DNA of 64,000 bases from Methanococcoides vulcani (GTDB lineage Archaea; Halobacteriota; Methanosarcinia; Methanosarcinales; Methanosarcinaceae): the NCBI RefSeq assembly GCF_900111645.1, contig NZ_FOHQ01000007.1, positions 1 through 64,000 on the forward strand. The letters run 5' to 3'. Made by a program: the position numbers and the translations under genes. This document shows, piece by piece, positions 6,826 to 24,251 of the stretch. Below the pieces are notes generated by a model, which worked only from the letters and a program-made list of their open reading frames with translations, did not search any database and had not been told where the DNA came from. Position 1 is the first letter of the stretch; every line of letters begins with the position of its first letter.

Positions 6826-7147
6826 AGACTTTCTTTTTCAGTATCAATTTCTTATTATCAGATAAGGCTAATGCTGCCGGTTCGGCAACACCTTTAAGGC
6901 CGAAACGGCTGGCCTGTGAATCCGAAGGCACTTCAAATCCGTTGAGAACATCATCCGGTAGGAACTTAATCTCAAATCCAAGTTCCCGGGAAGCTTCAAT
7001 AAGGCCAGTTTCATTCTCTTTAAGGGTGGATGATGCAAGCATTCGAATGTCTTTTTTATCCCTTCCGACCTCTTCCAATGCAGCTTCAATAGCATTGAGG
7101 ACTTCCTGGGCTGACACTCCTCTGCGGGCACCGATTCCAAAGTACAT
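6794..7147 (-). CDS. cbiG: Cobalt-precorrin-5A hydrolase, C-terminal domain (split CbiG)
   Basis: This 117-residue product equals only the CbiG C-terminal domain (GIGARRGVSAQEVLNAIEAA, then the helix-strand repeat ending in VAEPAALALSDNKKLI). CbiG opens the delta-lactone ring of cobalt-precorrin-5A and releases acetaldehyde. The rest of CbiG is the preceding gene; the two meet in a TAATG overlap at 7145-7149, so the second cistron is probably translated by reinitiation. The two polypeptides presumably associate. A single-base sequence error that would fuse them is the main alternative, but both reading frames are intact to the overlap. Confidence 0.88.
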   Translation of the reverse strand: MYFGIGARRGVSAQEVLNAIEAALEEVGRDKKDIRMLASSTLKENETGLIEASRELGFEIKFLPDDVLNGFEVPSDSQASRFGLKGVAEPAALALSDNKKLILKKKVYGRITIAIAE

Positions 7148-7683
7148 TATTCGTCCGCCCTTTCTTTTTTCAGGACTGATACATCGTTCTCAACGATGAT
7201 TATTTTTGGTCCCTTTATTTCCAGCACTTCCACGTCCTGGTCAAGCAGAGCACAGTTCACATCCCTTGTGGATTCCTTGTTAACGATGTCGTATCCCAAC
7301 TTTGCTGCAATACCTTCTACAGAGTTGCGATTGTGTACTTCAGTAGCTGTAGTTATAACAGGAACTACGCCCATCTCAGATATCCTGCGCACAAGTTCAT
7401 TTGCACCATGATGTCCTCCGAGCAGTGATATAGCGAAGTTCAGGTTGGAATCGACTACCACTACAGCAGGGTCGTCCCATTTATCGACTACCAGAGGTGC
7501 GATCTCACGCACGACTATCCCTGTTGCAAAGACTGCAACTAATGCCTGGTAGTCTTTGAAGATTTCCTCAAATATTCCTTTTTTGTAAATAATAACATCT
7601 GCATCGATGTGATCTGCGAGTTTGTTAGCCACATCGAGATTACGTTCAAATGTTATTACAGCGGTTTTTGTGCTACTCCGTAT
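7147..7683 (-). CDS. cbiG: Cobalt-precorrin-5A hydrolase, N-terminal/middle domains (split CbiG)
   Basis: The product matches the CbiG N-terminal and middle domains: [21 protein letters not shown], the [16 protein letters not shown] segment, and [10 protein letters not shown]. The only ordinary start in frame is GTG at 7632, but that would remove the first beta strand, [12 protein letters not shown], which is encoded in frame just upstream. Within the frame a perfect GGAGGT (7696-7691) sits seven bases before ATA (7683-7681), so ATA is proposed as the start, giving 178 residues and a 28-base overlap with cbiF. If ATA is not used, the protein begins at GTG 7632 and is truncated. The 3' end overlaps the C-terminal gene as TAATG. 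Confidence 0.8.
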
Positions 7684-8387
7684 AAGTGTGACCTCCTGTA
7701 ATCGACAGGGTCTACTACACCGCCGATAAGGATCATTGCGGAACGTATGATGCCTTCATCCTTTACCTTCTGTGCAATGTCCGCGACTGTGCCATAAACG
7801 ATCTTCTGGTCGGGCCAGGATGCGTGGAATACAACAGCCACTGGAGTATCATCTGAATACTCGACCTTTTCCATTATCTCTTCTATTTTCTGGGTACCAA
7901 GGAACACTGCCATGGTGGCATTGTGCTTTGAAAGACCTTTCAGATCATCCTCTTCCAGTGTCTTTCCTGCAGGACGTGTGATGATGAGTGTGTCGGAAAC
8001 ACCATTGAGTGTAAGCTGGGTGTCAAGTGCTGCAGCGGTTGCAAATACTGATGATACTCCAGGCACACGTTCTACTGTAATATCGTACTTCTTCAGCTCT
8101 TCCATTTGCTCAACGACGTTACCGTAGAGGGATGGATCCCCACTGTGCAGGCGTACGACCTTCTTTCCTTCCTTAATGGCATCTGCCATCTTCTTCGTGA
8201 TCTCGTCAAGGGTCAGGCCATAACTGTCGACCTTTTCTCCACTGCAGTAGTTGACGACTTCAGGGTTTACAAGTGAACCTGCGTAGACAACAAGATCTGC
8301 TTCTTCCAGTTTCTCGCGTCCAAGAAGTGTGATAAGTTTTGGGTTTCCCGGTCCGGCACCCACAAAAGTAATTACATTATCTGTCAT
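7656..8387 (-). CDS. cbiF: Cobalt-precorrin-4 C11-methyltransferase CbiF
   Basis: A SAM-dependent methylase acting at C11 of cobalt-precorrin-4. The 243-residue protein has the canonical N-terminal [16 protein letters not shown], the [11 protein letters not shown] motif specific to CbiF/Cob[15 protein letters not shown], the [14 protein letters not shown] substrate loop and a C-terminal RRSHLYG. Length is normal. It is in the minus-strand cbi operon, 14 bases after cbiL, and its last codons overlap the proposed start of cbiG. Confidence 0.96.
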
Positions 8388-19419: not shown

Positions 19420-19869
19420 TGGTTTATCTCGGACGTCTGGTTATTATTATGCTATGCTTATATCTGTTTGTACGATCTTATCTCAAAATTGTAGGAAAAT
19501 TATAGAAATAGTTTTATATTTTTGCGAAAGATTATCTTTACATGGCCTTTTCTTTTGCCTGTAGCTTTCTGGCAGTCCTTTGTGCAAATACCGATATGCA
19601 TAAATATTGATCTAACCTATTTTTAAGAGTAAGGACGAATCCATAATATATGTGATTCCAGGGACTTTCCGGGGTTATCTTTCAATACATTTGGGAATTG
19701 TGTTGATGGGATGTATTTTCAGGCAACTGTCAAAATATTTCCTTTTATTGTGCTCATAAATCATTATCAGGGCATGTATTGCTGATGCCTTTCGGGAAAA
19801 TATCCTGTGCAGTATAGATGTTGAGTAATATTGGAAAAGCACTTTTTCGAAAAAGAATCAGGTGATCGA
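19420..19869. other. Intergenic stretch without a recognised gene
   Basis: About 450 bases separate the divergent mer and DUF2180 genes. The sequence is AT rich, has several TATA-like words (for example GTTTTATATTT near 19510 and GCATAAATATT near 19600) that could serve the plus-strand genes, and contains no reading frame with coding character or clear strong hairpin. Confidence 0.6.
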
Positions 19870-20124
19870 ATGAAATGCTATGAATGTGCAAAGAACGGAA
19901 AAGACTCAGATGCCGTAGGTATCTGCATCGTATGTGGCAGAGGGGTTTGTAAAGACCATCTTGTGCGTGAGAAGATTCCTGAATGGGATGGTGAATTTGA
20001 CATCAGGCTCAGGTGCATGGGTGATTCCTGTAAACTAAAGGACATGCAGCCACTGCTTAAGATATTGTGCACTCCATGCCACGATGCCTTAGTGGAAAAC
20101 CCTAGTGGAAAACAAGTGAGGTGA
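19870..20124 (+). CDS. DUF2180 zinc-finger-like protein, copy 1
   Basis: An 84-residue cysteine-rich protein: MKCYECAKNG at the start, then ICIVCGRGVCKDHL, two more cysteines around LRCMGDSC and a final LCTPCH pair. The CxxC spacing suggests two treble-clef or B-box-like zinc sites. This matches the archaeal DUF2180 family, whose function is unknown. ATG 19870 is preceded by CAGGTGA; an ATG at 19831 in frame is rejected because the family begins MKCY. It is followed by a second copy starting five bases after its stop codon. Confidence 0.85.
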   Translation: MKCYECAKNGKDSDAVGICIVCGRGVCKDHLVREKIPEWDGEFDIRLRCMGDSCKLKDMQPLLKILCTPCHDALVENPSGKQVR

Positions 20125-20129
20125 GTATC

Positions 20130-20348
20130 ATGATGAAATGTTATGACTGTATGGAAGAGGGCAAAGACACTGAAGCTGTAGCTGTTTGTATCGTATGTGG
20201 AAAAGGTCTTTGCATGGATCATTCGAAAGAACTTATACTTCCTGTTTCTGTTGGAAAACCACCTGAGGTCACACGCTTGCACAATGCTCTTCCGAGGATC
20301 ATGTGCAACTACTGTCTGAGCAATACAATAGTTGATGCATTCGATTGA
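20130..20348 (+). CDS. DUF2180 zinc-finger-like protein, copy 2
   Basis: A 72-residue paralogue of the preceding gene with MKCYDCMEEGKDTEAVAVC, IVCGKGLCMDH and a C-terminal CNYC pair. It lacks the extra cysteines of copy 1 around LRCMGDSC. GAGGTG overlaps the stop of copy 1 and points to ATG 20130 or the adjacent ATG 20133. The tandem pair suggests recent duplication or a heterodimer. It lies just before the AhpD-like gene. Confidence 0.83.
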   Translation: MMKCYDCMEEGKDTEAVAVCIVCGKGLCMDHSKELILPVSVGKPPEVTRLHNALPRIMCNYCLSNTIVDAFD

Positions 20349-20392: not shown

Positions 20393-20740
20393 ATGAGTGA
20401 AAGCAGGGAAGTAATAGAAAGTATCGGGGAAAAGATGGGCTTTACGCCACAAATCCTTGAAACACTGGAGGCCATAGATCCTCATTTTGTCAGGAAATAT
20501 AGCAGATGTGACCACAATATACTATCCGACGGTGCCCTTCCGGCAAAAGTAAAGATCTTGATGGCTCTTGCTGTTGTGGCATCCAAGCAATGTGAATCAT
20601 GTACTGTGGCACAGATGAAGAGCGCATTAAAGCACGGTGCAACAAAAGAAGAGATAATGGAAACAATGGAAGTGATCTCCATCACATCAGGGGCACCTGC
20701 TATTGCAGCATGCCGCGATGCACTGAAGTTGTTAAAATAA
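20393..20740 (+). CDS. AhpD/carboxymuconolactone decarboxylase-like protein
   Basis: A 115-residue all-helical protein with the redox pair and histidine-like active-site region of the AhpD family: [35 protein letters not shown]. The CxxC (CESC) followed by a helix is the peroxidase/disulfide site; the histidine of the classical CxxCxxxH motif is replaced by a glutamine/methionine segment, and a histidine lies nine residues further on. A role in peroxide or disulfide metabolism is inferred from family and from its neighbours. A hairpin follows it. Confidence 0.8.
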
Positions 20741-20747
20741 CCTATCC

Positions 20748-20766
20748 TTCCACTTTTCTAGTGGAA
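20748..20766 (+). terminator. Hairpin after AhpD-like gene
   Basis: TTCCAC (20748-20753) pairs with GTGGAA (20761-20766) seven bases apart, eight bases after the AhpD-like stop. There is no strong T tract directly behind it, so it may be a processing site rather than a terminator. Confidence 0.4.
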
Positions 20767-20888
20767 CAAAAGGTACAATCCATAAAGGATCGCATTTTTT
20801 CCTGCGTTCCTCTTTTTTTAAGGATTGTCCCTCTTTCAATTATTTCTTTCAATTATATATCGCTACAATCTATCGAGGGGGATTTCGC

Positions 20889-22283
20889 ATAAGGTCTATT
20901 CACTATTGTTTTATCCTGTTACTTTTCGCATCGTTCGTCCTGCTGGTCACAGGTACTGCTACTGCAGCAGAACCTACCTCTGTTGGTGAACTTGATTCGG
21001 ATGACTTCGTAAGCCAGTCAAAGTGTGCCAACTGTCATGCTATAATACGTAGTCAATGGCAGGGGAGTATGCATGCTTACGCCTACACTGATCCACTTTA
21101 TCAGGCAGAATTGCTAATGGCAAGTGAAGAGACCGGTGGCCAGACGGATGAATTCTGTTCACGCTGCCACACACCTATAGGTGTATTGGCTGGTGAAGTT
21201 CCTCCAATCGATGGTTCTATGGCAAGTGATGTGGCGTTAGAAGGTGTTCAATGTGATCTCTGTCATACTGTCCCTGAAGGTGCAGGTATCGGTGACGGTG
21301 CATTTGTTTCAAGTCCCGGTGATGTAAAGTGGGGACCACTTGATGATGCACCTTCGGCCTTCCACGAGTCGGAGTTCAATGAGTTCTACACAGAAGCTGA
21401 ATATTGTGGAATGTGTCACAATGTGAACAGTCCTTTCAATGGTCTGCCTCTTGATGACACCTACACATCCTGGGCAGACAGCCAGTATGCTGAGGAGGAA
21501 GTTACCTGTCAGGATTGCCACATGACTCCTGGAATAACACAATTTGAGGCAAACCCCGGAAGATCTGCATCCAGTGCTCCGAAGAGGGAGCATATCTCCA
21601 TACATGAAATAGTTGGGGGAAATGTCTTCATGCTGGAGGTCCTTAGCGATGGTCTATATGGTGAAAAGGCCGAGGAGAGGCTCCAGAAGGCTGCAATAAT
21701 TGAAGTATCTGTGCCGGAAGATGCAAGTTCGGGTGAAGATATCACCATTGATGTCTCAATAACCAATTCCGGAGCCGGACATAAGCTTCCAACAGGTATT
21801 GCTGAGGTTAGGCAGATGTGGCTGGAGGTTTCTGTTACCGATGCTGAAGGAAAACAGTTGTATGGTTCAGGACGGCTCGATGCGGAAGGCAACATCGAAG
21901 ATGCGGTCATATATCATACTGTCCTTGCTGATCCTGACGGGCAGATTACTACAAAATTGTGGGAAGCTGAATCCATTGTTTCTGATAACAGGATCCTTCC
22001 GAAAGAAACTGAAGTTGAATCCCATTCTTTCGTCATGCCCGAAGATGCGGTGGATCCGATACTTGTTGAAGCAAAGTTATTATATCGTTCTGCACCGCAG
22101 GATATGGTAGACGAACTATTTGGTGAAGGTACTTACGATGTTCCTGTGATCGATATGGCTAATGCCTATGGCTCTATCAATGGTGAGGCTGATATTCCAT
22201 CTGAACCGACGCCTGGTTTTGGTGCACTCTTGCTTGTAATGTCCCTGATCGCAGTGGTTTGTATCTGCAGGACCAAAAAATAA
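20889..22283 (+). CDS. Pentaheme c-type cytochrome with PGF-CTERM anchor
   Basis: Read from the proposed ATA at 20889 (ribosome-binding site GAGGGGG at 20875-20881), the 464-residue protein has a signal peptide (residues 1-27), five CxxCH heme sites (CANCH 46-50, CSRCH 90-94, CDLCH 122-126, CGMCH 173-177, CQDCH 207-211), a beta-rich domain from about 235 (GHKLPTGIAEVRQMWLEV) and a C-terminal PGF followed by a membrane helix and RTKK, the PGF-CTERM signal for archaeosortase processing and lipid attachment. The first ordinary start, ATG 21069, would delete the signal peptide and first heme. It is thus a cell-surface electron carrier of the cytochrome c554-like type. Partners may be the flavoproteins encoded next. 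The heme-attachment system is not in the window apart from CcdA. Confidence 0.88.
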   Translation: MRSIHYCFILLLFASFVLLVTGTATAAEPTSVGELDSDDFVSQSKCANCHAIIRSQWQGSMHAYAYTDPLYQAELLMASEETGGQTDEFCSRCHTPIGVLAGEVPPIDGSMASDVALEGVQCDLCHTVPEGAGIGDGAFVSSPGDVKWGPLDDAPSAFHESEFNEFYTEAEYCGMCHNVNSPFNGLPLDDTYTSWADSQYAEEEVTCQDCHMTPGITQFEANPGRSASSAPKREHISIHEIVGGNVFMLEVLSDGLYGEKAEERLQKAAIIEVSVPEDASSGEDITIDVSITNSGAGHKLPTGIAEVRQMWLEVSVTDAEGKQLYGSGRLDAEGNIEDAVIYHTVLADPDGQITTKLWEAESIVSDNRILPKETEVESHSFVMPEDAVDPILVEAKLLYRSAPQDMVDELFGEGTYDVPVIDMANAYGSINGEADIPSEPTPGFGALLLVMSLIAVVCICRTKK

Positions 22284-22299
22284 CGTTGGAGGAATTAAC

Positions 22300-22929
22300 A
22301 TACCTGGTAATGTAATAAAACTGCTTGGAATATCCGGGAGCCCTCGAAAGAAGGCAACAGATCACATGGTCAGGGCGGCTTTGGAATTTGCTGAGGAGAA
22401 ATATGATGTGGAAACTGAATATTTCTCTGCAAAAGGAAAGGACCTGAAGTTCTGTATCCATTGTGATCATTGCATCCGGACCAAACAGGGTTGCATACAT
22501 AAGGATGACATGCTGGAACTCTATGATAAGATGCAATGGGCAGATGCCTGGATAATCGGCACTCCCGTCTACCAGGGAACGCTTAGCGGGCAGACGAAAG
22601 TTATGATGGACAGGTGCCGCGCTGTGGTTGCCCGTGATCCGAAAGTTTTTATGAACAAAGTTGGAGCAGGTATGGCTGATGGTGGTGATCGCATAGGTGG
22701 GCAGGAGCCGGCTTTGCAGACCATTCACAATTTTTATATCATAAATGAGATGCTCCCCGTGTCCGGCGGTTCCTTTGGTTCAAATCTTGGAGGTACTTTC
22801 TGGTCACAGGACAAAGGTGCTGAGGGTGTGGATGCAGATGAGGAAGGTTTGAGGAGTATGCGAAAGACCGTCCGCAAGCTGATTCAGACTGCTCAGATGG
22901 TAAAAAACGCATCTATGGGGGGCAAGTAA
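22300..22929 (+). CDS. Flavodoxin-like NADPH-dependent FMN reductase family protein
   Basis: The protein has the FMN-phosphate loop ISGSPRKKATDHM at its N-terminus, then a cysteine pair region (CIHCDHCIRTKQGC) typical of iron-sulfur flavoprotein relatives, and ADAWIIGTPVYQGTLSGQ, which holds the flavin ring. The FMN loop lies upstream of the first ATG (22366), so the start must be earlier. GGAGGA (22288-22293) precedes ATA (22300) by six bases, in frame, giving 209 residues starting PGNVIKLLG. The short cysteine cluster could bind a 4Fe-4S centre as in Isf, although spacing is not identical. It abuts the next gene with no gap, so the two are one operon with the cytochrome. Confidence 0.86.
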   Translation: MPGNVIKLLGISGSPRKKATDHMVRAALEFAEEKYDVETEYFSAKGKDLKFCIHCDHCIRTKQGCIHKDDMLELYDKMQWADAWIIGTPVYQGTLSGQTKVMMDRCRAVVARDPKVFMNKVGAGMADGGDRIGGQEPALQTIHNFYIINEMLPVSGGSFGSNLGGTFWSQDKGAEGVDADEEGLRSMRKTVRKLIQTAQMVKNASMGGK

Positions 22930-23628
22930 ATGGAATTTAAAGCACCTCTGTCTGAGATAATACGACAAACTCACGATGTTAAAAGCTTCAGGTTCGAAAG
23001 GCCTGAAGACTTCGGGTATAAAGCGGGACAGTATTTCTTTGTCAGTATTCCTGTAAACGGAGAGGTCCAGCGCAAGCCTTTCACAATATCGAGCAGTCCG
23101 ACTGAAAAGGGCTTTCTGGAATTTACCAAGAAGCTCACAGGGCATGAGTTCTCTAATGAGTTTGATGCTATGGATGTAGGTGATGTTGTAGTCATAAACG
23201 GTCCATATGGAAGGTTCACGTTCGAAGGTGAGTTCGATAAGATCGCTCTTATCAGTGGTGGTATCGGTATCACTCCTATGGTCAGCATCTGCAGGTATTG
23301 CAGTGACACAAGGTCAGGCACGAATATCATTATTCTGAGCAGTAATAAAACAGCTGAAGATATTGCATTCAGGGATGAACTGGGGGAAATGGAAAATAAA
23401 AATGCCAACCTCAAGATTGTGCATACCCTGACGCGGGCGGGAGACGACTGGTTGGGTTGTACGGGACGTATATGTGATACTATTATTATGGATTATATCC
23501 CTGATCTCATGGAACGTGTTATCTACGTATGTGGTCCTTCGGCGATGATGAAAGCAACGGAAGAATTGCTACTTAACATGGGTGTGCCTAAAAAACAGAT
23601 CAAGAAGGAAGCATTTGTGGGATTCTGA
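22930..23628 (+). CDS. Ferredoxin-NADP reductase-like FAD/NAD(P) oxidoreductase
   Basis: A 232-residue member of the FNR family without a 2Fe-2S domain. The FAD domain (residues 1-100) has the flavin motif RKPFTISSSP and GPYGRFTF; the nucleotide domain has GGIGITPMVSICRYC and the C-terminal VYVCGPSAMMKATEELL (read as IYVCGPSAMM). It would pass electrons between a reduced pyridine nucleotide or F420-type donor and a flavodoxin or iron-sulfur partner; the adjacent flavodoxin-like protein is the obvious candidate. The start follows the previous stop codon directly. Confidence 0.88.
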   Translation: MEFKAPLSEIIRQTHDVKSFRFERPEDFGYKAGQYFFVSIPVNGEVQRKPFTISSSPTEKGFLEFTKKLTGHEFSNEFDAMDVGDVVVINGPYGRFTFEGEFDKIALISGGIGITPMVSICRYCSDTRSGTNIIILSSNKTAEDIAFRDELGEMENKNANLKIVHTLTRAGDDWLGCTGRICDTIIMDYIPDLMERVIYVCGPSAMMKATEELLLNMGVPKKQIKKEAFVGF

Positions 23629-23678
23629 GAAGTATTTATTAACAATTGTTCGATTTATAATAAAATGAGGTGGATTAT

Positions 23679-24251
23679 ATGGAACTAAAAGGAACTGAAA
23701 CCGAAAAGAACCTGTTGAAGGCCTTTGCAGGTGAATCACAGGCAAGGAACCGGTATACCTACTTTGCATCAGTTGCAAGAAAGGCAGGATACCAGCAGAT
23801 ATCTGCCATCTTTGCTGAAACTGCTGACAATGAGAAAGAGCATGCAAAAAGACTCTTCAAGTTCCTCGAAGGCGGTATGGTGGAAATAACAGCTTCCTAT
23901 CCAGCAGGCATCATCTCCGATACAAGAACCAACCTTGAATCTGCTGCTGAAGGCGAGAACTACGAACACACAACAATGTATCCGGAGTTTGCAGAAGTGG
24001 CTGAAAAGGAAGGCTTCCTCGAGATCGCAGATGTGTTCCGTCACATAGCTATCGCAGAGAAAGGCCATGAAGAGCGCTACCGCAAACTTGCTGCTAACAT
24101 AGACCATGAAATGGTCTTCAGGAAAGATGGTACTGTTGCATGGAGATGCCGCAATTGCGGATACATTCATGAAGGTCCGCAACCTCCTGAAGAATGTCCT
24201 GCATGTGCACATCCACAGGGCTATTTCGAGGTAATGGCTGAGAACTATTGA
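23679..24251 (+). CDS. rbr: Rubrerythrin
   Basis: A diiron peroxidase of anaerobes. The 190-residue protein has a ferritin-like four-helix domain with the two iron-binding EX2H-type motifs ([27 protein letters not shown] and [15 protein letters not shown]) and a C-terminal rubredoxin domain with [10 protein letters not shown] and [15 protein letters not shown] 23679 has GAGGTGG five bases upstream; a GTG at 23670 is inside that site. It lies 50 bases after the FNR-like gene and 15 before afpA, in an oxidative-stress group. Confidence 0.96.

Follow-up and report, generated by a model that had tools for sequence, protein, structure and literature searches.

The window analyzed here, a 64,000-nucleotide stretch of the Methanococcoides vulcani genome (contig NZ_FOHQ01000007.1, positions 1 to 64,000), contains on its plus strand a cluster of redox genes, two of which appear to begin at ATA codons. 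The upstream member of the pair encodes a pentaheme c-type cytochrome (20889..22283, plus strand) that matches PF13435 in a profile search (39.4 bits against a cut-off of 20.8), and its five CXXCH motifs are invariant in an alignment of nine sequences. When the translation was inspected by eye, its N-terminus resembled a signal peptide, with a charged and then a hydrophobic stretch ending in AXA, and a second hydrophobic segment is located at the C-terminus. The reading frame is open from 20736 to 22283 and contains no ATG, GTG or TTG until the ATG at 21069, which lies past the first CXXCH motif. The putative start codon is an in-frame ATA (20889..20891) that is positioned 7 nt past a Shine-Dalgarno (SD)-like GAGGGGG (20875..20881), and an SD site is retained ahead of the start in 10 of 10 Methanococcoides genomes.

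The downstream member of the pair encodes an FMN reductase-family flavoprotein (22300..22929, plus strand), which matches PF03358 over residues 6-161, including the N-terminal FMN loop (112.3 bits against a cut-off of 24), and contains a Cys-rich stretch that by eye resembles those of iron-sulfur flavoproteins. Its frame is open from 22249 to 22929, and the first canonical codon within it, the ATG at 22366, is located inside the FMN-binding N-terminus. Here the putative start is the ATA at 22300..22302, 6 nt past an SD-like GGAGGA (22288..22293) that is identical in six Methanococcoides genomes. An earlier note on this DNA had pointed out that both genes lack an in-frame canonical codon ahead of their conserved parts and that a good ribosome-binding site lies six or seven bases before each ATA, and both statements hold with exact coordinates. 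Its warning that automated gene callers would truncate the two proteins is reasonable.

The gene directly after the flavoprotein, which encodes a FAD/NAD-binding oxidoreductase (22930..23628, plus strand; PF00970 and PF00175), has an ordinary ATG start and serves as the control gene of the cluster. It is followed by a rubrerythrin-like gene (23670-24251, translation read by eye), whose presence would be in keeping with a cluster concerned with redox or oxidative stress. Upstream of the cluster is a carboxymuconolactone decarboxylase-family gene (20393-20740), itself preceded by two small Cys-rich proteins encoded in tandem (19831-20348).

Start codons of orthologous genes

Aligning the N-termini of homologues from related genomes, a check suggested in the earlier note, strongly supports ATA as the start of both genes. 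Six Methanococcoides genomes share the flavoprotein ATA and its leader, GTTGGAGGAATTAACATA, without a single difference, and between the upstream stop and the 22nd codon past the ATA they contain no in-frame canonical codon. Two other Methanococcoides genomes (G045 and G059) have ATG at exactly this column, and in other genera ATG, GTG or TTG is found near it. In the cytochrome, the start column of the ten Methanococcoides genomes is occupied by ATA in nine and by ATT in one; their leaders retain the SD site while the remainder has diverged. The cytochrome orthologue of Methanococcoides seepicolus (L065 / L110) contains one in-frame TAG, which might encode pyrrolysine, result from an error or mark a broken gene.

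Beyond Methanococcoides, near-cognate cytochrome starts (AUA, AUU, AUC or ACG) were counted at 27 of 72 Methanosarcinaceae loci, a figure obtained by inspecting printed leaders and leaving out two ambiguous loci (L083 and L089). ATT occurs in Methanomethylovorans (4 loci) and in genus g3 (4 loci), ATT or ATC in five Methanolobus-group genomes, ATT/ATC in two Methanohalobium, and ATC in one genome that is presumably Methanosalsum-like; in a single g11 genome, ACG aligns with the ATG of a Methanosarcina. Close relatives carry ATG at the very column of a near-cognate start. The other loci in the set of 72 have mainly ATG (Methanolobus) or GTG (Methanohalophilus and Methanosarcina), and most readable orthologues outside the family (ANME-1 and others) have ATG. 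The eight Methanomethylovorans and g3 loci are less clean than the other near-cognate loci: in the four from Methanomethylovorans, a TTG or ATG lies three codons further on, at a distance of ~17 nt from the SD site, and two of those in g3 have a TTG two codons upstream, just 2 nt from it.

The cytochrome orthologue in the 5,751,492-bp genome G087 is one that we take to be M. acetivorans MA3739. MA3739 is reported to be a five-heme cytochrome with no predicted transmembrane helix that is 4.1-fold up in AQDS-reducing cells (PMC6703419). It belongs to the same gene family as the cytochrome studied here and both contain five hemes; however, the Methanosarcina copies examined mostly start with GTG, whereas the Methanococcoides gene starts with AUA or AUU.

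Probable near-cognate starts in other genes

Comparison of the window with five syntenic Methanococcoides regions revealed a third case, cbiG (7147..7683, minus strand), which encodes the N-terminal part of a cobalt-precorrin 5A hydrolase (PF11760, 111.8 bits; NF004465, 1.1e-67). Its probable start codon, based on a comparison across 12 genera, is the ATA at 7681..7683 (minus strand), which is preceded by an SD site, GGAGG (7692..7696, minus strand), that is conserved in Methanosarcinaceae. ATA behind GGAGGT was found at 46 of 49 readable cbiG starts in these 12 genera, M. acetivorans among them; the remaining three loci, from the small-genome genera g9 and g10, have an ATG close by. The start of cbiG is overlapped by the end of cbiF (7656..8387, minus strand; TIGR01465, 266.8 bits), with the final 27 nt of cbiF before its stop, and the stop itself, making up the overlap (window 7656-7683, minus strand). 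The ATA sits over the cbiF codons TTA TAC (Leu-Tyr), such that an ATG would alter a cbiF tyrosine. Because this overlap may be what preserves the ATA as well as the SD-like sequence, cbiG is weaker evidence for selection on the start codon. As evidence for a non-AUG start it still counts: the 29 loci examined contain no nearby in-frame canonical codon, the one exception being found in one genome, at a distance of 45 codons upstream.

In total, our survey covered 864 kb of the 2.31-Mb M. vulcani genome, comprising the window and two 400-kb stretches, the first of which lies on another contig and was compared with genomes G002 and G052. The first stretch yielded mtbC, which encodes a dimethylamine corrinoid protein (NF041607); ACG is found in 21 Methanococcoides copies that form two paralogue groups, as well as in three Methanohalophilus copies, giving 24 ACG copies in all. 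Upstream in-frame canonical codons are absent from 14 of the 23 copies checked, and in the others they lie 12 or more codons away. At the same N-terminal position, homologues have ATT in four genomes (g2, g7 and g11) and ATG in most others. At some mtbC and cytochrome loci a canonical codon lies a few codons off, without a well-placed SD site. Separately, the NCBIfam model NF041607 begins at residue 10 of the mtbC product (L218:1121-1759; G000 C5:201121), a late start that would fit family members whose N-termini were lost in annotation.

The exosome gene csl4, likewise from the first stretch, has ATT in 11 genomes of Methanococcoides and 12 of Methanolobus, and its exact start is less certain because the N-terminal extension is charged. 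The second 400-kb stretch, for which the M. vulcani genome alone was used, yielded the candidates radB (ATA) and an mtrA-like gene (ATA), and a second mtbC; the radB frame opens one codon before the ATA in M. vulcani, and its open length is the same in five other Methanococcoides. A phosphoribosyltransferase in the first stretch has a candidate ATA start in a single genome, and the ATT of ORF2169 (C5:34331) is uncertain as a start because there is a TTG or GTG six codons further along. Several other candidates were dropped, three as they likely use a downstream ATG (the ATC at C8:47006 and the ATTs at C8:71786 and C8:335290) and two as likely internal sites (C8:153253 and C8:96199).

Codon specificity was assessed with a codon-blind scan across 800 kb of the M. 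vulcani genome (758 predicted genes), in which a site was accepted when a strong SD lay 5-9 nt upstream, the coding signal rose, and no canonical start occurred between the upstream stop and at least 8 codons downstream. Ten sites passed: three ATA, two ACG, and one each of ATT, AGA, TTC, GAG and AAA. ATA, ATT, ATC or ACG thus account for 6 of 10 sites, compared to 0.87 expected from codon usage (binomial p ~7e-5), a p-value that is indicative since the thresholds were chosen after some of the genes were already known from the comparison. Six of 758 genes corresponds to ~0.8%, which would scale to some 15-20 genes per genome. The estimate is a rough minimum, as the scan misses genes that happen to have a canonical codon close to the start. 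The proposal that the two adjacent redox genes start at AUA is strongly supported for both of them, while the property is not special to the pair, as it is found in several unrelated genes and in most Methanosarcinaceae genera.

Discussion

The absence of canonical starts, the placement of the SD sites, the conservation between genomes and the replacement by AUG at one and the same column of the alignment are all directly visible in the genomes compared. They are best explained, with high probability, if both genes are translated from AUA through SD-assisted near-cognate initiation, a family-wide practice that would involve ~1% of Methanococcoides genes. A strong SD interaction would place the AUA codon in the P site, where the initiator Met-tRNA (anticodon CAU) could accept it with one mismatch, and the resulting protein should begin with methionine. 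AUA, AUU, AUC and ACG are each one base from AUG and would all be used behind good SD sites, and other Methanosarcinaceae would begin several of these genes at such codons too. Several points count against this reading, among them the nearby canonical codons at some cytochrome and mtbC loci and the cbiF frame, which may keep the cbiG ATA. AUA, AUU and AUC are synonymous isoleucine codons, so their exchange within the cytochrome alone could reflect a conserved isoleucine. In addition, archaeal aIF1 destabilizes initiation complexes on non-AUG mRNA (PMC6237735; PMC8211752) and should act against such starts. The same work contradicts the reason offered in the earlier note, namely that archaea tolerate near-cognate starts for want of strict discrimination. 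Because of aIF1, near-cognate starts are expected to be weak, and a reduced translation rate and sensitivity to aIF1 would presumably accompany them.

One alternative is that translation starts at the first downstream canonical codons, ATG 21069 and ATG 22366, yielding shorter proteins. These are standard start codons and the choice expected of automated callers, but a start at 21069 would cost the cytochrome its putative export signal and its invariant first heme, and a start at 22366 would remove the beginning of the FMN-reductase domain, which is matched from residue 6. The skipped sequence is moreover conserved as protein in all relatives, two of which have ATG at the flavoprotein ATA column, so we consider this alternative very improbable. 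The chance that the flavoprotein is instead an extension of the cytochrome, produced when ribosomes shift frame in the A-rich final stretch of the cytochrome gene, is remote. In the window the cytochrome stop does not interrupt the flavoprotein frame, and the cytochrome has AAAAAATAA at its end; however, in G028 and G052 the A-run reads AAAGAA and the open flavoprotein frame extends only a short way upstream. We reject such a fusion, since neither the slippery run nor the open frame is conserved, G045 and G059 have ATG in the flavoprotein, and it accounts for neither the cytochrome nor the other near-cognate genes. It is almost inconceivable that the ATAs stem from an error of sequencing or assembly, or that this strain alone has lost its start codons. 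A single base change would give back ATG, but the same codon is present in independent assemblies of other species, six for the flavoprotein and nine for the cytochrome, in which the genes are intact, and error is rejected on these grounds, barring an identical mistake in every assembly. The prospect that the codon is edited to AUG in the RNA, or read by a special initiator tRNA, is slight indeed: one edit of a known kind would suffice for ACG (to AUG) or for AUA (to AUI), but AUA, AUU, AUC and ACG cannot all be accounted for by any one edit or anticodon. Among the best 30 of 48 tRNA loci in the genome, which include Met (CAU) copies, the anticodons are ordinary and no special initiator was seen.

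Near-cognate initiation could also be real and, beyond that, regulatory, with selection keeping the starts weak and aIF1-dependent stringency or growth state tuning the set. In its broadest form, the Methanosarcinaceae near-cognate genes (redox, cobamide/corrinoid, exosome and recombination) would be co-tuned by aIF1 stringency, as an archaeal counterpart of the bacterial IF3-infC and sigR systems. We judge both forms rather unlikely. In their favor are the long persistence of the Methanococcoides starts in the cytochrome and in the two mtbC paralogue groups, without reversion to AUG, and bacterial precedents for regulatory weak starts in infC and sigR (PMC5472188). Against them, many relatives have ATG or GTG for the same genes, and the cbiG ATA may be held by the cbiF overlap. 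In a neutrality check of the cytochrome start column (fourfold-site tree length ~4.3), G is likewise absent from 14 of 24 fourfold columns with an A majority, a result that does not decide in favor of selection for a weak start. Folding of the leader mRNA was not clearly stronger than in shuffles at any of the starts, and no extra aIF1 copies were found, with one SUI1-family gene per genome.

Near-cognate initiation, if used as we propose, would correct the N-termini of proteins such as the predicted exported multiheme cytochrome, which otherwise loses its targeting sequence. Standard gene finders likely misplace the starts of proteins begun at AUA, AUU, AUC or ACG, and start-codon statistics based on annotation would undercount them. 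As the family has genetically tractable members, the set would also supply natural substrates for studying aIF1 fidelity in vivo. A 2020 review of archaeal initiation considers AUG, GUG and UUG only as start codons (PMC7531240), Ribo-seq of M. mazei small ORFs revealed ATG, TTG, GTG and CTG starts (PMC11456600), and an analysis of how start codons evolved across 36 groups of genomes counted one AUG-to-AUU and two AUG-to-CUG switches among 61,358 ancestral AUG starts (PMC5622118). The open literature, to which our search was confined with subscription papers outside it, yielded no report of conserved archaeal AUA, AUU, AUC or ACG starts, and the set described here is probably novel.

The closest known systems share some of these features. 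The infC gene, which encodes IF3, has a conserved start other than AUG, GUG or UUG that is opposed by a fidelity factor, AUU in E. coli and AUC in Streptomyces (PMC5472188); it is bacterial, and the factor autoregulates its own synthesis, whereas the present genes are archaeal, several in number and unrelated. Streptomyces sigR starts with GTC in 32 of 34 species and with GTT in the other two, is preceded by a strong conserved ribosome-binding site, AGGAGGTG, and is misannotated in genomes (PMC5472188). That system comprises one gene with proven IF3 control, whereas ours, recognized by sequence comparison, would comprise ~1% of genes with AUA, AUU, AUC or ACG starts. A third parallel is near-cognate initiation controlled by eIF1/aIF1, in which archaeal aIF1 disfavors non-AUG complexes (PMC6237735). 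This control is known in vitro and in eukaryotic cells, whereas the searchable literature yielded no natural archaeal gene set.
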